Below are positions 4,600 through 60,112 of a stretch of 64,000 bases of DNA, piece by piece. Source of the DNA: Eucalyptus grandis. Lineage: Eukaryota > Streptophyta > Magnoliopsida > Myrtales > Myrtaceae. The notes beneath the pieces were generated by a model. It worked only from the letters and a program-made list of their open reading frames with translations. It was not told the origin of the DNA and made no database searches. A program made the translations under genes and the position numbers. Numbering within the stretch: position 1 is the stretch's first letter; the number at the start of each line of letters is the position of its first letter. Where the stretch lies: NCBI RefSeq assembly GCF_016545825.1, contig NC_052619.1, positions 27,381,803 through 27,445,802 of the forward strand, given 5' to 3'.

Positions 4600-5520
4600 G
4601 ATTGATAGTATCCGCGTGTATAAGGGTTGCAAGTGTGTCTTATTTTTGTTTTCAATTTCTATTTTTTCTTCCTTTTGTGGCCCAATGGGGGCGGGGTAAA
4701 ATCCCTCCATTTCTATATTTGGGCTAGTTTCTCGCCTTAGTGTTTTTTTTTTCTTTTGTTAAACAAATCATTTGATTGAAGAACCATTCCAAAAAGAAAT
4801 TGCTATTTGTATTGTTAGTTGAGCAAACCCAATGAGCTTTTCCATCTCGAGCTTTTTCCAAAATAAAAAAAATAAAAAAAATTATATAGATACCCCATGC
4901 ATATATTAAAATACACTATGCTTTTACATAACTATAGATGGACGAAATCATAACTTGAGATAATGAAGATGATTCGCAGGTTACCGATTAATGTCTTATC
5001 TTTTAAATATGAATACAAAATAATTCTCTACTATTTATTGTCTTACCTTCAAAAAGAGGTTAAAAAATTTTACATACTAACAAATATCATGACGCTGCAT
5101 GTACATAAGAAATTGATATTTTCAAAGTTGGACAAAGTAAATATATTATTTGCATGTAATAAACATGAAGTACCATTTTGCTATACTTCTTGTCTTGTTT
5201 TAAGCTTTAAATCCTAAATATTTTAGCATTTAATACTAAATGCTACAAATTTTGAAGAATTTATACAATGTTCTAGTAATTAAAAATCATTTGAAATGCT
5301 TTCACATGCTTACTTTGTTTGAAATATATGTGATCTTAAACAAACGAAAATTTTATAATCAAATCTACCGTAAAAGTTATACGTGATGTCATGTGACTGA
5401 TTTAAATTATATTGTTACATAATGGTCAAAATTATGTTATTTCGTAATATTTAAATCATTAAATCATGGAAATAAATAGTTGGTGAAATACACAACATGA
5501 AAGAATGCGATTGAGGATGC
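4600..5520. other. non-coding 3' flank shared by copies A and B
   Basis: AT-rich DNA with no convincing gene. Much of it matches 46752-47520 downstream of copy B, for example the block around 5225 with TTTTAGCATTTAATACTAAA and the block ending at the CACTTCCTT near 5520. It marks the segmental duplication rather than a gene. The match is interrupted in copy B by the LINE at 41637-46751. Confidence 0.6.
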
Positions 5521-5524
5521 CACT

Positions 5525-6410
5525 TCCTTAAGGCTCCATCACCATCAATCCATCGTCTGTACCATCTCCGATCGGTGACAACCACCGTCAATTCTCCCTC
5601 GCCGGTCAGCGCAACCTCGGCCGCGACGGAGCAGAGAATGGATGCTCATCACCATCGATCGGAACTTCTCTCGTGCTCTTTCTCCCTCGCTTGGTGCGTG
5701 CGGGAGAGCTGAGGAACCGACCGAAGCAAGAATGCACACGCACGGACCGAGAAAAATATCTTCCAGTGTCCATGCCCGCGGTCGAAGCCAGTTGCAGCTG
5801 AATATCTTCGTCGAGCAATTTCGTCGCTGAATTGATTCGTCGCCTTAGCTTCGTCTTCGTGAGATTCTCCAAGTCTTTCAGTGTCTTCATTTATTAGCAG
5901 GTAACCGTTCAGATCGGACGCGGTCGATTCATCGAGACTGGAATTGCTCGTGTTTGCCTTTTGCCGAGAGATTCAAATTGTTATCTCAAATTGCTCGTGT
6001 TATATTGCTCGCCAATTGATAGGAATTCCTATATGCAGAGCACCTCACCATTCATGATCACCACCTATTCGACGTTTTGCCTCAGAGATGATAATGACGA
6101 ATTTGTCTTCATCATTGATCAATCTGAGATTGCATAGAATGATCTGGATGTTCTTGTTCGACATGCTGATCATATATTGTGCAATTTGATGCTTCATCCT
6201 TTGATGGCAGAGAGTTCTCTTTCCCTTGGTGCTTCGGTTTACTTTGTCTCCTTTGGTTATGTGACTGAATTGTCGTCTGGTATAACAGTAAGTCACTATA
6301 CATTGGTGGTGAATAAATCACGGCTAAGCTATATCAAGTTCAATCTCATTTTGATGCTCATAAAAGACCAGTCCACCAAAGTTTGAGGAAGAGAGTCTTC
6401 AACCTAATTT
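5525..6410. other. duplicated low-copy segment with a conserved short reading frame (unrecognised)
   Basis: Closely matched by 47515-48340. On the minus strand 5606-5890 begins MKTLKDLENLTKTKL and its partner 47547-47819 begins with the same text. The first 36 residues differ by three conservative changes, after which copy A has about 50 bp more. On the plus strand the same DNA looks like a GC-rich leader ending CAG|GTAAC (5900) or CAG|GTAAA (47830), a plausible first-exon donor. A plus-strand block near 6057, MITTYSTFCLRDDNDEFVFI, is also shared. I cannot tell which strand, if either, is genic, and I recognise no family. Confidence 0.4.
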
Positions 6411-6761
6411 AAATTCAAACTAAGCGGAAACGGTACGAGAAATGCTCAGGGATCGGAAGTTTAGTTAAGTTGAGAAATTATGGATATATAAAAGCAGTTA
6501 AGAAATCATGGATATGTAAAAGAAGTTAAGTTAAGAAATGGACATTGACCTAGTAATAAATAAAGGGAATTTAAGATTTACGAATAGAAGATATGCGGAG
6601 GAAAAAGATGTGTTGAAATTATGCCAGAATCCTGCCAAAATTACTGCTGAATTCCCTTTGAGTACCATTGTAATGTCGATGTCAATGTCTCCATTTGAGT
6701 GTCAATTGTACAAACTGTGATTAATTTCAATTCCAGCAATGTCAATGTCCTAGTAATCTCA

Positions 6762-6860
6762 TTTTCAGTTAATTTCATTTGGTTTATTCCTTTTAGTGTT
6801 CTTTGCTTTGATTTCAGTTAATTTCATTTGGTTTATTCCTTTTAGTGTTCATAGGGTGTG
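6762..6860. repeat. 49-bp tandem duplication in copy A
   Basis: TTCAGTTAATTTCATTTGG and the following TTTATTCCTTTTAGTGTTC occur twice, 49 bp apart (marker C at 6766 and 6815). Copy B has one diverged copy near 48740, and its alignment to copy A breaks just after this point. Confidence 0.85.
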
Positions 6861-24388: not shown

Positions 24389-26086
24389 CTATAGCATTTG
24401 ATATTCATCTTCTTCAGTTGCCGAGGCAACTGTGACTTCCAACTGAGCTTTGCGAAGCTCGGATTTCATCAATGCCATTTCACTTTGCGTATCAGTCTCT
24501 TTTTCCTTCTCATGGAACTTCTTTTCTATAATCTTCCATTTGTTTTTGCCCCTGGGGATCTTTTTCTCTGGGCAACATTTCTTTAGCCTTTGCAATTCCT
24601 TGAGCTCGTACCGGAGCTTCTCCTGCTCCCTTTCTTTGAGCTTGAGCTCCTTGTCCTTTTGCTTCAGCATTTCATCTTTCTCTTTCAACATCTCCTGCAT
24701 CTCTTGTAGTTCCTTCTCACGACTGCTTGTTGAAGCTGCTTCTTGCTTCTTTGAGCTTGCCCATGGCTTGCTCTTCTTTGGGGATGTCTCAATGGCTGTC
24801 ACATCATCTGCCTTGATGATACCGGTGGCTACTGGCTCTTCTTGCTCCTTTGCTGCAACAATCGCTTGGAGACTCCATTCTTCTTTACTATGGTTCTTCT
24901 TCTTGGTAAAAGTTGTAGCACCTTGTTTTACCTGCTTGAACCAACAGACTCTAGCAAAGTGGCCTACTTTGCCACAAATGTAGCACCGCTTGCTATGCCT
25001 TTTGTTGTCTTTGTCACAGTCTCGGTGTGCTCTCCCTGGTTGAGTGCTCCTTGCTATTGGTCGCCTTTGCCATTCACTATGACTTTTCCACTGTTTGCCA
25101 TTCCTAATCTCGACATCATTTCTCCATTGGCTCTTGAAACCTCTTTTATTTCTAGAGAGAGTATGCACATCATCCACGGTACATGCTAGCACCACATCTT
25201 CGTCATCATTGACGATATGTGCATGTTCCGTCACCTCTGCTTGACATTCGGATTTGTAATGTCCGAATTTATTGCACTTGAAACACCTAACTTTTGATTT
25301 GTCACGTGTTTTATATCTTCTGGTGAAATTTGAATTTCCACCCCTACCTCGGGCACCTCCACGACCTCGTCCATCTTGATAATCTCCTTGATTTGACTGA
25401 ACAACCTGACTCTGCAGTACTTGCTCGGGATACGAACCGATGGACTTTTGATTCATTCTTTGCTCATGCGAGCATAATGAACCCATCAACCGCTCCAACG
25501 TCATGGTTGATATATCTTGGCCTTCTTCGATCGCCGCAACCACGTAGTCAAACCTTTCAGTCAAAGACCTCAAGATTTTTTCTACGACTTGTACATCTTG
25601 GAGTTCTTCACCATTAACCCTCAATTGGTTAACAATGGTTTGTACGCGATCAAAGTAAGCTAAGATAGATTCAGAGTCATTCATGCGTAAAGACTCAAAA
25701 TCTCCTCGAAGTGTTTGGAGTCGCACCCGCCTAACACGATCATCGCCTTTGTAGGATTTTTGCAATATATCCCACGCTTCTTTCGCAGTCTCCGCACTCG
25801 ATATTTTTTCAAATATCGTCTCCTCCACAGCTTGAAAGATCGTAAATAATGCTTTCTGATCTTTCTTCCGAGTTTCCACCAATAAATCTTTCTCCGTCTT
25901 TCTTAAAGCATCGAATGCTTCGGCATCGGCCACTTTGATGTAGCCGTTCTCCACCAGGTTCCACAAATCTTGGGATTTGAAAAGAACCTTCATCTGGACG
26001 GACCAGTTGTTGTAATTCTTTCCATTCAACTTTGGGAGTAACAGTTGAACAGAGTTGGTGGAAGCCATTGCTAGCTTTGAGTTCAC
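24389..26086 (-). CDS. copia gag protein, UBN2 type, with two zinc knuckles and a coiled coil
   Basis: Structural capsid/nucleocapsid protein of the small retrotransposon, 565 residues, uninterrupted. The family start is probably the internal Met at 26068 (MASTNSVQLLLPKLNGKNY), seven codons after the first Met. Residues about 20-210 are the UBN2/gag domain (NWSVQMKVLF, AKEAWDILQKSYKGDDRVRR). A Gly/Arg-rich linker near 240-250 precedes two CCHC knuckles, CFKCNKFGHYKSEC (about 268-281) and CYICGKVGHFARVC (about 368-381). A strongly charged heptad region follows (about 455-510, KEKDEMLKQKDKELKLKE). Copia gag usually has one knuckle and runs into protease. Here translation ends after the coiled coil. 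Confidence 0.93.
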   Translation of the reverse strand: MNSKLAMASTNSVQLLLPKLNGKNYNNWSVQMKVLFKSQDLWNLVENGYIKVADAEAFDALRKTEKDLLVETRKKDQKALFTIFQAVEETIFEKISSAETAKEAWDILQKSYKGDDRVRRVRLQTLRGDFESLRMNDSESILAYFDRVQTIVNQLRVNGEELQDVQVVEKILRSLTERFDYVVAAIEEGQDISTMTLERLMGSLCSHEQRMNQKSIGSYPEQVLQSQVVQSNQGDYQDGRGRGGARGRGGNSNFTRRYKTRDKSKVRCFKCNKFGHYKSECQAEVTEHAHIVNDDEDVVLACTVDDVHTLSRNKRGFKSQWRNDVEIRNGKQWKSHSEWQRRPIARSTQPGRAHRDCDKDNKRHSKRCYICGKVGHFARVCWFKQVKQGATTFTKKKNHSKEEWSLQAIVAAKEQEEPVATGIIKADDVTAIETSPKKSKPWASSKKQEAASTSSREKELQEMQEMLKEKDEMLKQKDKELKLKEREQEKLRYELKELQRLKKCCPEKKIPRGKNKWKIIEKKFHEKEKETDTQSEMALMKSELRKAQLEVTVASATEEDEYQML

Positions 26087-26237
26087 GATCCTTGATTGAT
26101 TGCTCTAGGTTCTCGGTCTCCAGCCACTGGTTTTGATACTCCGGTTCCTGACCTCCTAGGCTTTGACACTCAATCCTTGGCCTGCTTTGGATTCACGATC
26201 CCTAATCGCTAGCTTTGACACGGTCCTTGGCCGACTA

Positions 26238-30504: not shown

Positions 30505-32130
30505 ATGAATCAAACCTACATATGTTAATTAATCATGCTTAACCTACATATCTCAAATAGAACTCAGGATTTTCCAATAAATAGTTTGGACCTTTCTTAC
30601 GCGACATTTGCAACTTATCCAGCTTAACCATTTTCACAAATTTATGAAACAAACCTACATATGTTAATTAATCATGCAAGCTAATGTTAGTGGACGTGAC
30701 ACATATAGGTAAATATACATAATAACTTACTGCAGAATTTTCTTACATAACAATATTTAATTTAAACATGTTTAACGTGTTCAATCATATATCACATTCA
30801 ATAAATATGTCATTTTTCACTTAGACCGAAACTATCCACAGCGTGTTTATGAAACGACAAATTAACAAAGTTTTATGATGCTATGTCGTTATTAAGGACA
30901 AATTTATCATATATCCGATGATTTTTACGACGTTCTCGTCATGTTTACAATGGGTTGGGCATTTGCCGGTTTTAAAACCTGAGGAACAATCCAACAATTT
31001 ACTGTAGGAAATCCCCCATTGTCTTCTCTGTTATTTTGGGCACCGCCACGCCCACAGATGACTGAAAAAAAAAAAATTAAAAGAAGAAGACGACGAAGAA
31101 GAAGAAACTTAAAATCTCTATTCAATCGGCACCGCGCCGAAAGATGCTCGACAGTAAAGGCTGGAAGAGAACAGACCAATGGCTCTTTTTTAAAGAAAGA
31201 TCGTTGCGCTCGATGCCGAAAATCTTTGACCGTCAAATCTACGATATTGATGCCCACGGAGGACTGGAGAGATGGGACACTTTATTTTTCGCGTAAGAAA
31301 AAGAAACCAATAATTAAGGAGATGGAAGCCATTTCCCAAAAACATCAAATCATGATAGTATAAAATTAAATTAATATAACAAAAAATTCAAATATTATAT
31401 ATTTATTACAAATTTATTCAGATTAATATATCTATAATAAATTTATCATCCATTAATTCTCATTAATTTTTATCATTAAATTATTGATTTATTAAATAAT
31501 ACATCAATTTGAATTTTGTTTTTTGAGTTGATTTGATTTTTGGTTTCTCATGTAATTATTCAATTTAACAGAAATTAATGATAGATAAATTTATCATGAA
31601 TATTATAATTAAAAAAATTTATAGTCAAAATATTAATTTAAAATAAATGTATGATATATTAATTTGAATTGTTTTTGTAATATTAATCACTGGAATTATG
31701 ATTGTAAAGATTTATCTCATGTCGACCGACGGCATCTGCTTGTTTTTCACGGCGTCAAAGCCCGAGCCGAGCTTGCTGAGGCCGGCAGGCCCCACCGCCT
31801 CCTTCTCTCCAATTCCCTCGTCCCTCTCATTTGCTTTGCCGACAACGTGTGGCTGAGGATTCACCGTCCTTTTTTACAGCTAACGGTACGGTTAACCAAG
31901 CATTACACTTAATATAATAATCTCTGTCGACCCACGAAAAGGAAAGTAATGCCTCTTAATACGAAGAAGATACTGAGGGGATTCGATGGGGAACAAAATC
32001 TCACTGGTTGCGAATCCCATTTCCTGGAAGCCACGACCAAGTATTTTATTGGGGGAGCCAATGGAGTAGCTTTCCTTTTAAGATCTCGGTTTCATCTTCA
32101 CCAGCACCTGCCTTGTTTCACCAAATTCTA
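30505..32130. other. intergenic DNA upstream of the TNL
   Basis: Mostly AT-rich with no gene recognised. 31730-31860 is GC-rich with an open but unrecognised frame. The TNL promoter should lie in 31870-32130. CTTAATATAATAA at 31908 is a weak TATA candidate. Confidence 0.45.
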
Positions 32131-32624
32131 ATGGCTTCTTCTGCTGCTTCTCCTTCTTCTTCTTCGAAATGTAAAAAAAATTACGATGTCTTCTTAAGTT
32201 TCAGGGGCACTGACGTTCGCAATAACTTCCTCAGTCATCTTGAGACAGCTCTATACCAGAAAAATATATCCTATTACATCGACAGCAAGGAAATGAGGAA
32301 AGGAGATCAAATACGGCCGGCGCTTACGAAGGCGATTGAGGAATCGCAATTTGCGATCATCATTTTCTCCGAGAACTACGCTTCCTCGTCATGGTGTTTG
32401 GAAGAGTTAGCGAAAATCATGGAGTGCAAGACACAGAAGGATCTGATTGTGTTGCCAGTGTTTTACAAAGTGGAACCAAGAGAAGTGAGATGGGGTAGAG
32501 GGAGTTATGGGAGAGATATGGCTAAACATGAGTCTGATTTTGGGAAAGATTCGCACAAAGTGAAGAGATGGAAGAAGGCTCTTTTTGATGCCAGTGAATT
32601 GTCTGGGTGGACCTTGAATGATGA
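32131..32624 (+). CDS. TNL copy B exon 1: TIR domain
   Basis: N-terminal TIR domain, an NAD-cleaving and self-associating module in plant immune receptors. The start at 32131 gives a Ser-rich leader and then KNYDVFLSFRGTDVRNNFLS, the canonical TIR opening. The frame is open upstream to 32008, but that text is not TIR. The region SSSWCLEELAKIMEC holds the conserved glutamate of TIR NADases, and VLPVFYKVEPREVR is the usual beta-strand plus box. The exon ends in phase 2 at a strong donor, GATGA|GTAAGT (32624/32625). Confidence 0.92.
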
Positions 32625-32765
32625 GTAAGTGTTAATTGATGTATTGCACTGCTTTGTCCCTGTTTTTTATCTACTTAGCCACATCCTCACTCTGTTTTCA
32701 TGAAACTTAATCATTTCTTTGAATTGCTAAATCAATATGTCAAGTACTATTCCGGTTTTTTTCAG

Positions 32766-33846
32766 AGTTGAAGCGGAGCTTATAAAGGAAATTGTGAGCA
32801 AGATCTCTATGCAGATTGACCAAAGACCCGTACATGCTGCTGAGCATCTGATCGGGATACATCTTCGACTGATAGAGCTGAATTCAATGTTAAAACTCGG
32901 GTCTGATGAGGATGTTCGCATGATAGGATTATGGGGACCAGGAGGCATAGGGAAGACAACTTTAGGTTTAGCCCTGTACAATAATATTTATAGGCAATTT
33001 GAGGGTTCATGTTTTTTGGCGGATGTTTGCAAAGCTTTGGAAGGTCCCAAGGATTTAGTTGCTTTGCAAAAACAATTGTTGTTTGACATATTACCGGGAC
33101 GAAGGTTAGTGGTGTCTAATGTTCATAAAGGTATTAGTTTAATGCAAAATAACCTTTACCACAAGAAAGTTCTCCTTGTTCTCGACAATGTTACTGACAG
33201 AAGTCAGTTAGATGCTTTAGCTGGAAATCTGGAGTGGTTTGGTGCAGGAAGCAGGATCATCTTTATAACGAGAGATAAGCATTTGCTAATTTCTTGTAGG
33301 ATAGATGAAGATTATATCTATGAAGTTAAACCTCTAAAGAAATGTGATGCTTTTGACTTTCTCTGTAGACATGCTTTTTCGAGTAACAACAGTAGAAGGA
33401 GGGATCTTGTGGATAAGGTTTTGCATTATGCTAATGGACATCCTTTAACACTTAAGGAATTGGGTTGTTACCTGTATCGTAGAAGTGAATGTGAGTGGGA
33501 AAGTTCACTGCGTATTCTCACCACAATTCTTAAAAAAACCAGCATTGATACTTTTAAGTGGAGTTATGATGGACTAGATGACAACGCAAAGGAAATCTGC
33601 CTTGATATTGCCTGTTTCTTCACGGGGTACTCTAAAGAGTATATTGTGAAAGTTCTTGACTCCTGCGACTTTGAACCTACTATTGGAGTAAAAGTTCTTG
33701 TTGAGAAGTCCTTGGTAACTGAAGAGAGAGAGACCCTACAGATATGTAACATGATTCAATTGATGGCCATGGATAGCGTTAGACAAGAACATCCTAGCAG
33801 GTTATGGCTTCTTGATGATTTTCGTAATGTTTTGTCAGGGCATTTG
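32766..33846 (+). CDS. TNL copy B exon 2: NB-ARC domain
   Basis: Nucleotide-binding switch of the receptor. The acceptor TTTTTTTCAG ends at 32765 and restores the frame (GA|A, VEAELIKEI). Motifs in order are P-loop GPGGIGKTT, kinase-2 KVLLVLDNVTD, RNBS-B GAGSRIIFITRDKHLL, a GLPL-type motif altered to GHPLTLKELG, and RNBS-D LDIACFFTGY. The MHD motif that holds ADP is missing: where MHDLIQ is expected the text is NMIQLMAMDSVRQE. It ends in phase 0 at TTG|GTAAGA (33846/33847). Exons 1 and 2 together are exactly 525 codons with no stop. Confidence 0.92.
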
Positions 33847-33930
33847 GTAAGATTTGTTGGTGTTGATATTGATTTTGCTCTCACTATTTAATTTTGTATA
33901 CTAATTGCACTGCAAATTCTATAAATACAG

Positions 33931-46350: not shown

Positions 46351-46751
46351 GAGCTAGCTGAACAGAGTCGAGGAAAAGGAAGTAGCAGCTGGGTCAGAAT
46401 GATGCTGCTAAAACAAAAGCAAGCGCAATCTGGGATGTCGATTGGAATGGGTATTCTCGGGAATGTCCAAAAGAGGCCATGCAGAAAGTAAAAGAAGATT
46501 CTGAAAGTAGAAGAGGTGACGAGCAAACAGAATTGAGGCAGAAACAGGGGCGAAAGGGTTGGGGTGTCGATGATGTAGAAAAGATCAAGCCAACAAGAAA
46601 TGTAGGTGGGAATTCAGGGTAGATGAAATTGCCATGGCCGAGCTATAGATTAGGTGGACGGAAAGGATTAGGGTTTAGGGTTTGAGCTACCATTGAGGTA
46701 GAAGATGACTACATATCGAGAGGACTCTTAGCCCCTCCAATGGCTAAATGT

Positions 46752-48800
46752 ATATATGGGCTTGTTTCTTGCCTTGGTTTTATTTTTTCTTCTTGTTTTA
46801 AAATCATTTGATTACAGATCGATTCCAAAAAGAAATTGTTATTTGTATTATTAATTGAGCAAACCCAATGAGCATTACCATATAAACTTTTGCCAAAAGA
46901 AATTATATAGACACGCCATGCATAAATGTAGAATACACTATGCTCATATATAACTATAGATGAACGAAATCATAACTTGCGATAATGAAGATGATCACAG
47001 GTTATCGATTAACGTCTTATCTTCTAAATATGAATTCAAAAGATTCTCTAATATTTATTGTCTTACTTTCTAGAAGGGTTCAAGGTATCATGACTGTGTG
47101 TACATAAGAAATTGATATTCAAAAGTTTAACAAAGTAAAGATATTATTCGCACTTGGTAAACATGATGGTACCATTGTGCTATACTTCTTGTCGTGTTTA
47201 TTGTACTTTGGCTTTAAATCCTAAATTTTATAGCATTTAATACTAAATGCTAAAAATTTTAAGAAATTTATACGATGTTCTAGTAAAAATGCTTTTACCT
47301 AATTTGTTTGGGATATATGTGATCTCAAATAAATGAAAGAATTATACAATCAAATCTACCGCAATAGTTATACGTGATGTCGTGTGACTGATTTGAATTA
47401 TATTGTCACATAATGGTCGAGATTTTGTTATTTCGTAATATTTAAATCATTAAATCATCGAAATAAATAGTTGGTGAAATACACGACATGAAAAATGTGA
47501 TTGAGGGTGCCCCTTCCTTTCGGCTCCATCACCATCGGTCGATCGTCTATACCATCTCCGATTGGTGACAGCCACCGTCAAATCTTCCTCGCCGGTTAGC
47601 GCAACCACGGCCGCAACGGAGCAGAGAACGGACGCTCATCGCCACCGATCGAAACTTCTCTCGTGCTCTTTCTCCCTCGCCTGATGCGTGCGGGAGAGCT
47701 GAGGAACCGAGCGAAGCCAGTTGCAGCTGAATATCTTCGTTAAGCAATTTCGTTGCCGAATCGATTCGTCGCTTTAGCTTTGTCTTCGTGAGATTCTCCA
47801 AGTCTTTTAGTGTCTTCATTTAATAGCAGGTAAACCATTCGGAAGGATCTCACCCCAGGTAGGATTCGGTCGATTCATCGAGACTCAATCATACGATTGT
47901 TTTGTGTTGGCCTTCTGCCGAAAGCTTCAAATTGTTATCTCAAATTGCTCATGTTATATTGCTCGCCGATTGATAGGAATTCCTATTTGTAGAAAACCTC
48001 ACCCTTCATATGATCACCACCTGTTCGGCGTTTTGCCTCAGAGATGATAATGACGAATTTGTCTTCATCATTGATCAATATGAGATTGCATAGAGTGATC
48101 TAGATGTTCTCGTTCGACATGCTGATCATATATTGTGAATTTCCATGCTTCATCCTTTGATGGCAGAGAGTTCTTTCCCTTGGTGCTTTGGTTTACTTTG
48201 TCTCTTTTGCTTGTGTGACTGGATTGTCGTCTGGTATAACAGTAAGTCACTATACATTAGTGGTGAATAAATCACAGCCAAGCTATATCAAGTTCAATCT
48301 CGTTTTTATGCTCCTAAAAGACCATTTCACCAAAGTTTGAGAGAGAGAGAGAGAGAGAGAGTCTTCAACCTAATTTAAATTCAAAATAAGCGGAAACGGT
48401 ACGAGAAATGCTCATGGATTGGAAGTTTAGTTAAGTTGAGAAATTATGGATATATGAAAGCAGTTAAGTTAAGAAATCATGGATATATAAAAGAAGCTAA
48501 GTTAAGAAATGGCCATCAACCTAGTAATAATCATATGGAATTTAAGACTTATGAATAGAAGATATGCAGAGGAAAAAAGATATGTTGAAATTATGCCAGA
48601 ACCCTGCCTAAAATTACTGCTGATTTCCCTTTGAGTATTGTTGTAACATCAATGTCAATGTCTCCATTCGAGTGTCATTTGTACAAACTGTGATTAATAT
48701 CAATTCCAGCAATGTCAATGTCCTAGTAATCTCGTTTTCAGTTAATTTCGTTCAGCTCGTTCCTTTGAGTTTAGTGTTCTTTGCTTTGATTTCCTTTATT
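46752..48800. other. copy-B counterpart of 4720-6790
   Basis: Aligns block by block with copy A. It includes the conserved minus-strand frame MKTLKDLENLTKTKL (47819-47547) and the block RDDNDEFVFIIDQ on the plus strand near 48045. A (GA)n run of about 20 bp at 48342-48361 is absent from copy A. Similarity ends around 48790. Confidence 0.6.
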
Positions 48801-52828: not shown

Positions 52829-53680
52829 TGTCACGCCCCAACCCTCGGTTATGTGACCATCCTTCAATTTTGGTCGATTTTGAAAATGCGATATCCCAGG
52901 ACTACATATCGCCGACCCTTTCATTTTTAATAGTACATGCGGAAGCCGTTATAAAAATCCCCAGACAATAAAGCAATGGGATATACAAGTAGGACTAGAA
53001 ACTTGAACCCGAAAACCAACACCCTTATGTACATATACAACAACTCAGTCATTCATGTACATATACAAGCCATGCTAAAAAGGTTGTTTTCTACTCAAAC
53101 AGATTCTACAGCAAAGGTCATCAAATAGGAGTGAAGTCTCAATCCTCATCAAGATCTTACTCTAGATCATCATCGGGGTTCTCCTCCAGATACTCCTCTT
53201 CGGGTTCTTTCTTCTTAGGTTCTTCATCAGGGTCCTGAAATGTTGTCCCACAACCGGGATGAGATTACGTCTCAGCAAGTTCTACCCCCTAAGACCCGAT
53301 TAGTAAACTAATACATCTTAGGGTTGCCTATGCACAACATGAGTCAGAAGATTTACCTTGGCCTCAGATTCCACCTGCATATTAGCACATATCAAATATA
53401 TATCCAAGCAATCACATCATTAATCGAAGCATCGATCAAATCGACCTAATCGATTACACGCCAACAAGACCACTCACGGTTATTTCCACTCAATCAATCA
53501 ATCCACAACATCAAACCAAAGTAATGATTAATCACATTAAATTACACTCAGATCGAATCATCGATCAATCGACCTAGTCGATTACAAGTCAGTCGAATCA
53601 TTTCTAGGTCATTCATTCCATCTCATATAACCTCCAATAGTACACTTAGTCACAGAGCTCCATTAATACTCTTGGGTGTC

Positions 53681-54008
53681 GTTTTCGCACAGTGATTTTT
53701 TTCATCACCGAACCACGCCCGTCATAGATCATAGACAGTTTACGTGCGTTCTTTAAGGCGCCGTTTTCGCGCAGTGATGTCCTTCATCACCGAACCACGC
53801 CTGTCACAAATCATAGGCGGTCTACGTGCATTCTTTAAGACACCGTTTTCGCACAGTGATATTCTTAATCACCAAACCACACTTGCCACAAGTCATAGAC
53901 AGTCTATGTGCATTCTTTAAGGCGTCGTTTTCGCACAATGATATTCCTCATCACCGAACCACGCTTGTCTATACTTCGTACTTGATCGGTCTCAACCAAT
54001 AGAATTCT
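53681..54008. repeat. four tandem 82-bp repeats in the LTR
   Basis: GTTTTCGCACAGTGAT or close variants start at 53681, 53763, 53845 and 53927, spaced exactly 82 bp. Each unit continues CATCACCGAACCACGC and TTCTTTAAG. Differences are substitutions, many of the C/T or G/A type. Confidence 0.95.
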
Positions 54009-54460: not shown

Positions 54461-55574
54461 TCCATTTAGGCCTGAATTGCCTAATTAACACCCGATAAGG
54501 GTCGGGAAAAATCTCAAGAAGCATCGAATAAATACTATAGGCAATTCTCTATCTAAGTACACTAACCACCTAACTAATATGCAATACAATCAACTAATAA
54601 TCACTAATCCATTCTAATCTAACCACCTAATTACATTTAATTAACACTAATCAACATTTAAGTATAATTAGCAAACTAAGAAGGCATTAGTGAGCAAAAC
54701 TCACTAGATTAAAGATCCGCTTGGATCAAATCGACGAGCACGCGACAAAGCTCGATCCTCTCCAAGGTGAGTCCACCAACCGGGGCCCGGAACGGCCCAA
54801 AATCGGCCACGCAAGCTCGCAGCTGGGCTGGAGATTCTGTTCCCGCGCTGTTGATCTTGCTGATTTGATGAAGAGGGGCCTTCAAGCAGCTGAATGGAGC
54901 GGCCAAGAGATCGAGGAACGGTGGCTGATGGGCTTGGCGAGCGGAGCTGCTGCGGCTCAGTTCTAACGAAACGGGGGTGACGCTGGCGGAGAGGTGCCGC
55001 TGGTTTCGGTGGCTTCGCTGGGTTGATGAAGGAACGAACGCGCGGCTTCGTGGCTGGGTCAACATATTCACTGAAGAAGCAACTTCGGTTTCACTAGCTG
55101 ACCGAAGATGGCTGCGCCGCGGACGTGTGGCCAAGGGTTGCAGGGGCTGTTCGGTGGAGGTGGCCGCAAGAGAGAAATGAAGAAGCTGCTTCGTCCGTTG
55201 AACCAGCAAAAAGCAGAGAAAATGAAGAAAAGGGAAGACAGCTAGGGGATGTCGGCCGAATGAGGGGATAAACATTGACTCAAGTCAATGAAATAAAGCC
55301 AAAGAAAATTAATCCTGCAGAGGCTGTCGGCTGGAGAAAGGAAAACGCACGAGAGAGAAAAGGTAAAAACTAAGGGTGTAAACGGTTCGGTTTGGTTCGG
55401 TTTTTCAAAAAAACTTAATCGAACCAAACCGTTAAAGAAAATTTCGAACCGAACCGAATAAGTTTGGTTGAACCGTTCGAAAGTTTGGTTCGGTTTTCGG
55501 TTTTCAAATTTTGGGTTTCGGTTTTTGGATTTCAGTTTTTTTTTTTTTTTTTTTTTTTTTTCAGGACGGCTTAC

Positions 55575-55703
55575 CTTCTGTATAAGCTCCTTGAAGCATT
55601 GATTGACGTTCTCTCTAGTTTTTGAGCTATATTCAAGAAACGAACATTTATGTCTTTGAGCTAGATGTCTTCCTTCTTCCGTTGTCACGGCCCTTTTCCT
55701 TTC
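55575..55703 (-). pseudogene. captured exon of a RABC (Rab18-type) small GTPase gene
   Basis: A complete 129-bp exon between AATTTCAG and AAG|GTAAG, open for 43 codons: AVTTEEGRHLAQRHKCSFLE, then YSSKTRENVNQCFKELIQK. This is the C-terminal part of the Rab G domain, including the G5 box (normally ECSAKT, here EYSSKT) of plant RABC proteins. No P-loop or switch regions are present. The reading frame is intact, but the SAK-to-SSK change and the missing rest make a working GTPase impossible. Confidence 0.85.
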
Positions 55704-56107
55704 CTGAAATTATCACATCATGAGAAGCGAGATGACTTCTCTTCGAAGAGAAGTCAAGCAAGAAGAAACCAGGGAGGATAAGAAGTGACGATGAGGACGG
55801 GAGCTCGGAATGTTGCGTGAGAATTCTTTGGAAGGAGGATGGCGTCCCGAGACATGGTTTCTTTTGTGGGCTTGTCCTGCTTTTAGCTTTTCCAATGTTA
55901 ATTTGTTCCCCGAAGGAATATTTGGTCCTACATGCAGTGTAGCAATTTTAAGTGTTTTTTTGACACTAGTGATTCGTAAATACAGCCATAAGCATATGAA
56001 ATCGTGATAAAGTATGCTAACTTATCTTCTCATCTTAATGTTCTACTATAGTCTTTATGCCTCACATCACATTTCACTCAGCAAGTATACCCATTTAGTC
56101 TAGGAAA

Positions 56108-56222
56108 TTGTCCTTCTCCAAGGACAAGAGAATCTAGACCTGCTGAGACTTCAAAAAGATGTTGTGTAGCATCCCCATTGTACAACAAAAATCGGTGTTG
56201 ACAAAGCTCTGAAACAGGGATT
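56108..56222 (-). pseudogene. captured glutamyl-tRNA reductase exon (downstream piece)
   Basis: After TTGGTGAACAG the text reads [20 protein letters not shown] and [18 protein letters not shown], the N-terminal catalytic region of plant glutamyl-tRNA reductase (first committed step of chlorophyll/heme synthesis in plastids). Homology ends abruptly after GEGQ, where the family continues ILAQVK. This marks the capture breakpoint at about 56108. Confidence 0.88.
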
Positions 56223-56387
56223 CTGTTCACCAAAGAATAAGAGAAAAAAAAGTAGAAAGAATCTCGGATTAACAAGAACTTAAAGGAAACTAGTGCTTTT
56301 CATCCATAAAACAGGTATCATAGGGCAATTAATTATTGCAAGAATCCAAATTATAGTCATGGCAAGGAGAAAAAGTAAATCACATTA

Positions 56388-56612
56388 GACATCCATTCAG
56401 TCACTTCTTTAACCCCACGATGCTGAGACAAAGCGACAACATATATCTCCATTATGTTACAACCGCTTCTTCTATATGATTCAAACTACAGAGTTCTCCA
56501 ATGGCTCAAGGCCATTATGCCTCAGGAATGGCAAGTTTCTCACGCATCTCCACAGGAGTTGTGTGCACGCTAAGCCCAATAACCACAATGCTGCTCCTTT
56601 CTTTTGTATACC
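56388..56612 (-). pseudogene. captured glutamyl-tRNA reductase exon (upstream piece)
   Basis: After TTTTGGTCAG the text reads [20 protein letters not shown] and [11 protein letters not shown], then a stop where the family has Glu-Trp. It continues as [11 protein letters not shown], loses the STCNR stretch that holds the catalytic Cys, and resumes [20 protein letters not shown]. The intron to the next exon (56223-56387) is kept, so the fragment was taken from genomic DNA, not from mRNA. Confidence 0.85.
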
Positions 56613-57044
56613 CTGACCAAAACAATTAAAATAAAATTAGTAATCTCAACTTAGGAATCTGATGTCACAATATATACTTTTCGCTTATGTGTTTTCTATT
56701 TGCATCATTGCTTGAAAAGGAAGAAAGTCACTCTCTATGAACATGCAGGATTGTTTTAAGCTCAACATATGTAAGAAGAGAGGGAAATAAGTAGTTCCAC
56801 CTCAAAGGTGAAGAAAGTGGTACATCACCATAGGAACAGAATAAAATCAGAATTGCTCAAACCCCAGACTAGATTCTCAAGTTCAATCGAATCATTACGG
56901 TTTCCAGCTTAACCTTCAGGCAATTCATACCCGCCCTACAGAGCTAATGAGTATCTTCTCAAGCAAACCAGATTCACAACTCAGAGCGTCAAGCCAATAC
57001 AAAAATGTCATCACTATGGTTCCACCTAGCTAAAAAATAGCATA

Positions 57045-57104
57045 CCTCCTAGTAATTTTGAAGGGGCCCAATTTTGCTAAAGCTCGCTCCACTTCTTCAC
57101 TAAC
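57045..57104 (-). pseudogene. captured CBP60 exon (downstream piece)
   Basis: VSEEVERALAKLGPFKITRR follows the other CBP60 piece in the family protein (..RRVVSEEVERALAKLGP..). About 450 bp of intron-like DNA separate the two. Confidence 0.7.
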
Positions 57105-57554
57105 TTGGTCAATATTTCAGAAAGTAAGTTCTTAAGCTACGTTAAAAACTTCAAACATAGCAAATTCCTTTATGACCAATTCTGAGGAACATTGTATCGT
57201 TATGCAGGCAAAAGCATGATGCATTCCCTCAGTTCCAAATTAAAAGTGTAAACTAAACTATCATAGTCACTACATGATATTTGGCAAAATCAAAGATGAT
57301 ATTGCTAATGCATAGTCACCCTAAACGCAAACATACTACACTATACATGAGATTTTCACTTCTCAAGGCTCTCAAGCCAATTTAAGGAGACAGTGATACA
57401 TATAGAATCAGAATATCACTCACTCCCACAAATCATGATAACCACTGTTCTCTAGTTTCTTCATCAACCAATTTTACTACTCTTCCATTAACCAAGAGAA
57501 AAGAACATGGAAACACAATAAATGAATAGCATGCGGCTGCCAAATTTATCTTAC

Positions 57555-57627
57555 CACACGCCGAAGTATGGGCTCTAATGATGAGCAAAGTTTATGCAAA
57601 CTATCCACCTTGAGAGCTTCAATGACA
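57555..57627 (-). pseudogene. captured CBP60 calmodulin-binding protein exon (upstream piece)
   Basis: Between TTGATGCAG and GTG|GTAAG the exon reads VIEALKVDSLHKLCSSLEPI and LRRV, a conserved N-terminal signature of plant CALMODULIN-BINDING PROTEIN 60. Open frame. Neither the DNA-binding nor the calmodulin-binding region is present. Confidence 0.75.
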
Positions 57628-58449
57628 CTGCATCAATATAAAGGAACATTAATATATTTATAAACCTCAAAGGAGCAACCATTTTTACATAAGATGCATA
57701 ATTATAGATAAATTCCCTCTGAAGAAGGCAAGGACACATAACAGAGACAGATCCAGGGCCCAAAACTTTTAGCTACATTAGATGCTATCTATGGAAGATG
57801 GTAGAATTCAAGTTCGTATAGAAAAGAAATAGGAAAACAGAAGAAAAGAGTCAAGAATCTACAATGAGAAGTTGGAACCCTTTTCCAATTGTCGAACTTG
57901 ATACTTTTGTGAAAAAGAATAATAGTTTAAGCCAAACACAGATGAAGAGACAAAGGGAAAAAAGAAAAACAGATGAAAAGAATCAGGAATCCACACAAAA
58001 AAGAAGAAGTCAGGACACCCTTTTCAGAAAGGCAAACATAACTATATTAGGAATAGAGAGATAATTTAAGCCAAACACGGCAAAAAAGAGGAGGTCAAAT
58101 TAAGAATCTGTAACCCAAAGCCAGAACACTAACACCATACAAAATAGCAAGAATCTGCGTTACTTTGCACCTTCTAAACATGAAATCAACCTTGAAGTCA
58201 ACCACTGCAAGCATTTGATCACTTTGAAACTTGGTGCAATATTTATGTTGGATCTATTAGTAGTCTGTGTTACATAACACCGACAATGCAAAAAGGGTTC
58301 TTCAGCAAAAAATCATTAATTATCCGGTAAACCACACGCATTATACAATTAGCAGCCCTGCAACTTCCCAGTCCGAGTCTCGCTCCATTTACATGTTGCC
58401 CAATACGATAACATCAAAACAATTAACCTCAACTGTTTGAAGACAAACC

Positions 58450-58690
58450 TGAAAGCGAGCGATGGCATTAGCAGCAATGGTGGTGTAGGCGCTGCCCAGT
58501 GCCCATGTGAGGAGGGGCATTGACGTAGTAGAGTCGCGTCGTGAGGACAAAAAGGGTCAGTCTCCAAAGCGCCGTTGCTCGACCCAGCACAGCACACAGT
58601 TCCACGAGTCGCCGGCGCGCCGCTGCCGATGAAGAAGGAGAAGAAGAAGAGAAAAGGGCGTGGCGGAACAACCGGTCCCTCAATCGGTCG
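58450..58690 (-). pseudogene. captured first exon of an organellar-type methionyl-tRNA synthetase gene
   Basis: A Ser/Arg/Ala-rich leader like a plastid/mitochondrial transit peptide (HALFSSSSPSSSAAARRR) leads into [17 protein letters not shown]. After a 7-bp insertion it continues [16 protein letters not shown] in another frame. The family text is [27 protein letters not shown], including the ATP-binding HxGH-like motif. It ends at CAG|GTTTG (58449). Being a first exon, it may have brought its own promoter. Confidence 0.85.
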
Positions 58691-60112
58691 CCATCCCTGC
58701 CGCCGTCGCCGTCATAGTCATAGTCGCCGTCACACCTTCAAGATGAGAGGAGACGGGAGAGAATAAGAAATAGGGTTGGCCTTTTTGCTGTGCATGGTTA
58801 TTGGTTCTATTTTTCGGTTTCTCGGTTCGGTTCAATTCGGTTAACCGATAAAAACCGAACCGAACCGAAAATTTTCGGTTTTTAATGAAAACCGAACCGA
58901 GATGAAAATCGAACCGAAAAACCGAATGTTTCGGTTCGGTTCGGTTCGGTTTTCGGTTCGGTTTGGTTTTCGGTTCGGTTACTGACACCCCTAGTAAAAA
59001 GAGAGAGAGAAAAGGAGAGGCACGGATGTGAGGGGGGTTCGTGCGTGGGTCTTCGACGAAGAGAGAGAGAAGTCAAAGGAGGGAACGTGCGCAGCAAGGG
59101 GGGAAGAAATAAGGAAGAAAAATAAAGAAAACTAAAAGAATTTTCTATAATCCAAAAATTATTGTCCTATTTGCTTTTGTTTAGCTCAAATTGGTCCCCA
59201 AAAATCTCCATGCTAAAGTACTCGACCCTTACTTGCTTTCTTGTACAAAATTTCCCTCAAACAACAAGTTTTGGACAACAACAACGGCAGTTTCCTTCAA
59301 TTCCGAATTTTAATTCATTTCTTTTCGGAATCCTATTTTCTGAACAAACAAATGCGGTTGAGGTCCAAGTTGAATTCAGAAAAATCCCAAACAACTTCCA
59401 TTTGCCAAATCACTCACACAAAATGCCAAAATCTCTTCAAATTGGCCAATCTGAATTTCCATTCATTTTCCGAATTGTCCGCAACGATTTTCCGTGAAAA
59501 TCTCAAACTCGCCGGAAATTTCTCAAAAGTGAGTCGGCGTTCCTAGAATGACTCATGACACGACAAGACTTCCAATTTCTGAAATCGAATTCAAATTTGC
59601 AGTTATTTTCAATCAAACGTGATTTTAGTATGACATTGCCTACCGGGTAGCTTTAGGAATTCTTGGTATAATTGACCCGTGGTCTATTTTCTTCGAGCTA
59701 CTCGTACCTCTTCGACACATTAGCGACTCTCGATGGTTGTGAAAATCTCGAGGTTTCAAATACGGACACAGGGTACAAAAACGATAAGAAAAATCGGTCT
59801 AGTGCCGGTTGACAAGAGTTTTCTAATTTAGTGGTGTCACCCACGATTAGTAACGTATCTTAGTCGAACCGACCTATCTCTGATCTCAAATCGATTTATA
59901 TCTGTGTCATAATGACCTCTAAAGATGGATATGGTCGAGAAGCCGATTTCTAGTCGAATTCTCAAGTCTATTGCCTTAAAATTCCTTAATGGCTTTCCCA
60001 TATAGTCTAGTTATCTCATGAGTGGCCAACTCAGAGAAAAACACTATAGTCGCATTGACGAAAGGCCCATCTTATCCGATCGAAATCAGAACCTGAAAAT
60101 CAAGATATCACA

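Follow-up and report, generated by a model that had tools for sequence, protein, structure and literature searches.

How does a transposable element of a few kilobases come to hold pieces of several unrelated host genes? The question is raised by a hAT element at 55371-58993 in a 64-kb stretch of Eucalyptus grandis DNA, referred to here as the window. An initial annotation, drawn from the letters alone, had described it as a Pack-hAT that holds fragments of four genes, taken up in sequential captures from genomic DNA. We searched the window's own assembly (616.5 Mb, 36 contigs, in which the window is C8:27381803-27445802), where the loci found are spread over eleven contigs of 38.8-74.6 Mb; the genome match counts given below are lower bounds. 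We conclude with high confidence that the host pieces were captured by a transposase-coding hAT element, and that the copy in the window is a non-autonomous deletion derivative of it. The features of this copy are as follows.

55363-55370: left target site duplication, GTAAAAAC
55371-58993: hAT element, 3,623 bp, delimited by terminal repeats, target duplication and a related empty site
55371-55379, plus strand: left terminal inverted repeat (TIR), TAAGGGTGT
55380-55563, plus strand: left subterminal region; ACCGAACC/GGTTCGGT motifs, and T26 at 55536-55561
55564-55752, minus strand: RABC-like small GTPase piece 1, one exon (55703-55575, AG and GT kept) and intron
55753-55984, plus strand: fifth gene piece, in opposite orientation within the RABC intron, internally deleted in this copy
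55978-56112, minus strand: RABC-like piece 2, intron, 93.5% identical to the same source as piece 1
56104-56903, minus strand: HEMA (glutamyl-tRNA reductase) piece, exon 56612-56384, exon from about 56221, intron sequence
56900-56903: GTTT microhomology at the transposase-removing deletion, where the sister element L024 has about 2.7 kb
56900-58434, minus strand: CBP60 (calmodulin-binding protein) piece, exons 57627-57555 and 57104-57046, with introns
58434-58669, minus strand: methionyl-tRNA synthetase (MetRS) exon 1 piece, donor kept, last exon base 58449
58670-58984, minus strand: right subterminal region
58985-58993, minus strand: right TIR, TAGGGGTGT
58994-59001: right target site duplication, GTAAAAAG, 7 of 8 bases matching

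The transposase-removing deletion

Evidence on this question comes from L024. There, HEMA extends beyond the point that matches window 56903, CBP60 begins ahead of the point that matches window 56900, and transposase sequence lies between the two; in the window, HEMA and CBP60 meet at a common 4-bp GTTT. Because L024 holds both sides of the deletion together with the transposase, the window copy is very probably an internal-deletion derivative of a gene-carrying transposase element and not, as the initial annotation would imply, the collector of the pieces. L021 and L023 have another deletion: the last CBP60 base there is source position 5186, and about 54 bases separate it from position 2997 of HEMA. 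In a tree of the HEMA part the window copy groups with L023 (90/91), with L024 near, and where the window copy is concerned there is no supported disagreement between the trees of the two halves, the CBP60-part tree being poorly resolved. Ds is likewise a deletion derivative, in its case of Ac.

Transposase sequence was found in the sisters L024 (6,457 bp), L032 (5,907 bp), L034 (5,996 bp), L043 (7,372 bp) and L044 (6,656 bp), each with its own target duplication (7/8 or 8/8). In L024, L032, L033 and L038 a segment of some 2.3-2.4 kb separates HEMA from the CBP60 side, and L034 has the same transposase segment without a CBP60 match. The L032 transposase matches zf-BED (1.2e-6), hAT-like_RNase-H (6.1e-21) and Dimer_Tnp_hAT (1.1e-22), in separate frames. 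The window copy gave no match to the L024 transposase segment, nor does any window frame of at least 120 aa match that segment. A genome-wide transposase search returned at least 98 matching rows (92 of 771 candidates scored). At C6:53470779 (L047:1495-3591, within C6:53469000-53475499) there is a relative of the hAT transposase, at 76% identity, whose frame is open over 698 aa.

Ends, cargo and source genes

The element is real and its boundaries are exact: the inverted hAT ends and the 8-bp duplication with one mismatch, both noted in the initial annotation, are borne out by the GTAAAAAC/GTAAAAAG flanks and by a related empty site. The TIR consensus is TARGGGTGT, with 8 of 9 positions identical between the two ends of the window copy. 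ACCGAACC/GGTTCGGT sites number 16 in the 64-kb window, 13 of them inside the two subterminal regions and the remaining three in a tandem repeat at 53680-53969. The joined flanks of the element align over their full length with C5:54867139-54867419 at 92% identity, and the junction there has one GTAAAA plus a few additional GA bases. Because GTAAAA is single at this place, we regard it as a relative of the repeat that surrounds the window element, with the element itself absent. C7:56213236-56213396 likewise crosses the flank junction, but without the target letters themselves. It is highly likely that the element inserted at the window site, leaving the 8-bp target duplication.

Along the plus strand the cargo runs RABC, reversed fifth gene, RABC, HEMA, CBP60 and MetRS. 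All four gene texts named at the outset are real, but the count is five, the additional piece being that at 55753-55984. The RABC-like exon matches Pfam Ras (8.7e-9), which supports a Ras-family gene that we take to be of the RABC subfamily. Segment 55753-55977 has no match to the RABC source gene, and the RABC intron picks up again beyond the fifth piece after a 7-bp overlap. The HEMA piece matches the Arabidopsis GluTR structure 4n7r (3.1e-13 and 6.1e-18) and, with its exons joined by hand, Pfam GlutR_N (2.2e-22); it carries two stop codons at a place where EWPR stands in the source, and its intron sequence has two internal deletions. The CBP60 fragment itself had no match in PDB, Pfam or NCBIfam, and segment 57690-58390 falls within the CBP60 source alignment. 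With a 7-bp insertion skipped, the MetRS piece matches tRNA-synt_1g (5.9e-6) and a MetRS in PDB (1.2e-7), against only 0.053 with the insertion left in. Since the piece begins within the exon, it brought along no promoter or start codon; a role as promoter donor was ruled out, the capture ending 90 bases inside exon 1. An orientation common to all cargo and the transposase was also ruled out, by the reversed fifth piece.

The source genes lie elsewhere in the genome, at the following places. With host gene pieces between its ends and no transposase of its own, the window copy is properly called a Pack-hAT.

C7 near 52487403 (L031): RABC-like source, matching 55564-55752 at 91.2% with gaps and 55978-56112 at 93.5%
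C7:32764494 and C6:3891090 (L028 and L029): HEMA sources
C5:50162528-50163211 and onward (L027): CBP60 source, 96.0% over 1,542 columns (56900-58434)
C10:766107 (L039): MetRS source, matching 58445-58669 at 87.6% with gaps
C2:13088273-13088788 (L048): fifth-gene source, 91% in two blocks, 55753-55877 and 55878-55984, plus orientation

Both the parental genes and the capture endpoints that the initial annotation had suggested looking for were thus found, with the RABC-like, HEMA, CBP60 and MetRS fragments 94-96% identical to their sources on ungapped columns and with sharp breakpoints. By piece, the ungapped values are 94.1% for RABC (324 bases), 94.3-94.7% for HEMA against its two sources (804 and 788 bases), 94.3% for MetRS (209 bases) and 95.7% for CBP60 (1,640 bases, which exceeds the length of the piece, some matches being counted twice). 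The RABC source locus holds a Ras P-loop exon (3e-5), the HEMA sources have the domains GlutR_N, Shikimate_DH and GlutR_dimer, and the L027 exons beyond the captured part match Calmodulin_bind (4.3e-30) and also Calmod_bind_M. The fifth segment is longer in L032, where it matches C2:13088273-13088788 at 89 and 80% as well as a second place 8 kb away. An NAD_binding_11 exon (L049, 1.6e-9) lies on the same strand about 3.9 kb downstream of L048, and the start at L048 and this domain probably belong to one gene. A third HEMA gene is present at C6:34162167. The HEMA loci L028 and L029 are 96.9% identical across 1.86 kb, introns included, and are apparently, from this likeness, a recent duplication.

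Origin of the cargo

The introns align to the source genes, which indicates capture from genomic DNA, as originally suggested. The source aligns on both sides of nine of the ten exon borders, introns included, and native splice dinucleotides are retained at 8/10; in CBP60 the second acceptor is AA, and in HEMA it sits in a deletion where another AG is present by chance. Microhomology at seven junctions measured 0, 7, 4, 4, 5, 4 and 1 bp, a sum of 25, compared with a mean sum of 4.75 and a maximum of 20 for random joins of the same sources (0 of 20,000 draws reached 25). These seven include two deletions inside the HEMA piece and the later transposase-removing deletion; the sum is 21 once the last is left out. 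For the junction of CBP60 with MetRS, L043 supplied the sequence on the MetRS side.

Searching by the ends brought up sisters with other cargo subsets, as had been anticipated. Of 240 first-look candidates for the left-end query (55371-55670), 40 were scored, which gave, apart from the window, the RABC gene and at least 38 element loci; the right-end query (58800-58993) gave 444 first-look candidates, 40 of them scored. The HEMA piece was found at 22 other loci and in three HEMA genes (27/27 candidates scored), one of the 22, C8:15427858, being without a left end among the left-end matches listed. Twelve other loci, some of just 50-100 bases, and one gene matched the CBP60 piece (15/15 scored), and MetRS with its flank gave at least six other near-full loci and many partial ones (40/41 scored). 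HEMA, CBP60 and near-full MetRS occur together at three loci, namely the window, L023 (C1:18.42 Mb) and L024 (C3:32.29 Mb), which also have RABC and the fifth piece and so, among the copies found, hold all five.

The remaining sisters carry less. L022, L025 and L026 have CBP60 and MetRS with ends, 43-98 bp of RABC remaining; L034 and L035 have RABC, HEMA and transposase with no CBP60 match; and L033 and L038 show CBP60 remnants past the transposase. In L043 and L044 a longer MetRS accompanies RABC, HEMA and transposase, with no CBP60 match. The longer MetRS is also present in L040 and L041, where the 9-9.5 kb that were read contain neither HEMA nor RABC; fragments of the segment that follows the transposase end persist in L041. 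Elements without CBP60 (L043, L044) or without HEMA and RABC (L040, L041) point to more than one capture step, and to this extent the proposal of sequential captures stands; their order is only partly resolved because the source identities in the window copy are alike and give no clear order. A target duplication with at most one mismatch was found at 11 of the 19 loci tested, the window included, and is perfect (8/8) at L025 (2,730 bp) and L032 (5,907 bp). The differing duplications and the related empty site together argue that the cargo-bearing unit was mobile. Across the loci read, host cargo comes from six source genes and a piece of a C2 tandem cluster. L032:6628-7815 bears other host pieces, among them an Esterase-domain exon (Pfam 4.5e-7; source candidate C11:21690477, 91%), presumably S-formylglutathione-hydrolase-like, and L032 has a 149-bp piece with matches at many loci at C2:27.1-27.9 Mb.

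In the history that we favor, a transposase-coding element would have gained host gene pieces to either side of its transposase, probably when repair synthesis on genomic DNA switched templates at short microhomologies. The succession of RABC, reversed fifth gene and RABC is the trace expected of a template switch and return. The GTTT-joined deletion would have taken out the transposase together with the HEMA and CBP60 ends next to it, and the window copy would then have been non-autonomous, with transposase acting in trans. The deletion may have come before or after the last move.

Several observations weigh against this history. The search for an autonomous hAT recovered transposase-bearing sisters, but a whole open transposase was present in 0 of 18 loci examined, the longest frames among them being 538 aa (L034) and 458 aa (L032). 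The open-frame relative L047 showed no TIR pair or cargo in the 6.5 kb covered, and it is possibly domesticated or immobile. Among the capture junctions, one lacks microhomology (0 bp) and another shows just 1 bp, three of the seven junctions are deletions and not captures, and the random-join null does not mimic the choice of breakpoints. A TIR pair with target duplication was not found at 8 of the 19 loci tested (L021, L022, L026, L033, L035, L038, L041 and L042). The MetRS source matches tRNA-synt_1g at 1e-3, below the Pfam cut-off; nonetheless, the C10 source exon reads as MetRS onward from a start codon.

Fusion offers another route, in which a Pack element with RABC and HEMA and another with CBP60 and MetRS landed nearby and were mobilized as one. 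This is a published model for Pack-TYPE elements (PMC8903248), and elements with mainly one half do exist (L022, L025 and L026; L034 and L035). However, L024 links the halves via the transposase, no end sequence between the halves was seen when it was compared by BLAST with the window element, and the single halves look like deletions, given the RABC bits in L022, L025 and L026 and the CBP60 remnants in L033 and L038. With the half-trees also free of supported conflict for the window copy, poorly resolved as the CBP60 tree is, we consider fusion unlikely. A retroposed chimeric transcript trapped between hAT ends would account for the A26/T26 run at 55536-55561 that adjoins the RABC piece, but the introns are present, the sources align across nine of ten exon borders and one gene piece is reversed, so that this origin is extremely improbable.

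It is also very unlikely that the window copy works as a chimeric gene, even though four of the five pieces and the sisters' transposase share one orientation and most borders keep their native splice dinucleotides. No open reading frame through the joined exons was found, HEMA with its two stops and MetRS with its 7-bp insertion being interrupted and the fifth piece being reversed, and MetRS lacks a promoter and a start codon. Judged from its sequence, the copy appears to be a decayed passenger, whose transcripts, if there are any, could undergo splicing. Returning to capture by the transposase-coding element, a wider proposal is that such an element itself collects a changing multi-gene library as its breaks or gaps are mended through repeated template switches into host genes at microhomologies, Pack-hATs being deletion by-products. 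We put this forward tentatively, leaning slightly against it; if true, it would reverse, for the family of 55371-58993, the view that genes are gathered by a non-autonomous element.

Related elements and the rest of the window

Cargo capture in a transposase-bearing hAT family has been described for Hatvine-6 of grapevine, whose copies have the transposase and TIRs in common while the remainder varies and resembles exons, introns and non-genic DNA (PMC2528002). Unlike Hatvine-6 as described there, the present family has mapped sources, breakpoints and deletion derivatives, and five genes in 3.6 kb. A five-gene cargo within one element is likewise known from Tgm-Express1, a soybean CACTA element that combines exon and intron sequence from five unrelated host genes within 5.7 kb (PMC1947982); that account demonstrates spliced chimeric transcripts, whereas the window element is a hAT known from sequence. 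Given these two precedents, the window element belongs to an already known kind of element, although its history is unusually readable.

Pack-hATs are known in maize, where Pack-TYPE elements often combine DNA from more than one locus, and fusion of neighboring insertions is the acquisition route favored in that work (PMC8903248). In contrast to the maize and rice Pack-TYPE elements as described there, the cargo here is also present in transposase-bearing sisters. An animal study dealing with Pack-TIRs, gap filling and FoSTeST gives microhomology, where present, as 1-36 bp with a median of 2 (PMC8277862). Our element resembles the Pack-TIRs of that account in breakpoint microhomology and, probably, in template switching, the median over its seven junctions being 4. 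A literature search, which was not exhaustive, returned no published account of the hAT family of 55371-58993, and a search of papers with a CBP60 sequence word gave no match. The route by which Pack-TYPE elements acquire gene pieces is still disputed. Because a single genome here offers sources at about 94-96% identity, transposase elements, cargo subsets, deletion derivatives and base-level junctions, repair template switching becomes testable against fusion of neighboring insertions.

Elsewhere in the window, plus-strand resistance-type frames at 31960-33891 match the Pfam domains TIR (1.5e-46) and NB-ARC (1.2e-19). A 141-bp unit is repeated 5.8 times (94%) at 896-1711, inside a frame that is leucine-rich-repeat-like by eye, with a related copy of the repeat at 37.3-37.5 kb. 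A 2.1-kb direct duplication (4714-6815 and 46751-48793, 82% identity) belongs to a collinear series of 3.4-8.4 kb with 40.4-52.3 kb. On the minus strand, 24389-26104 holds a 571-aa frame with CCHC zinc-knuckle text that by eye resembles a Copia-type gag.

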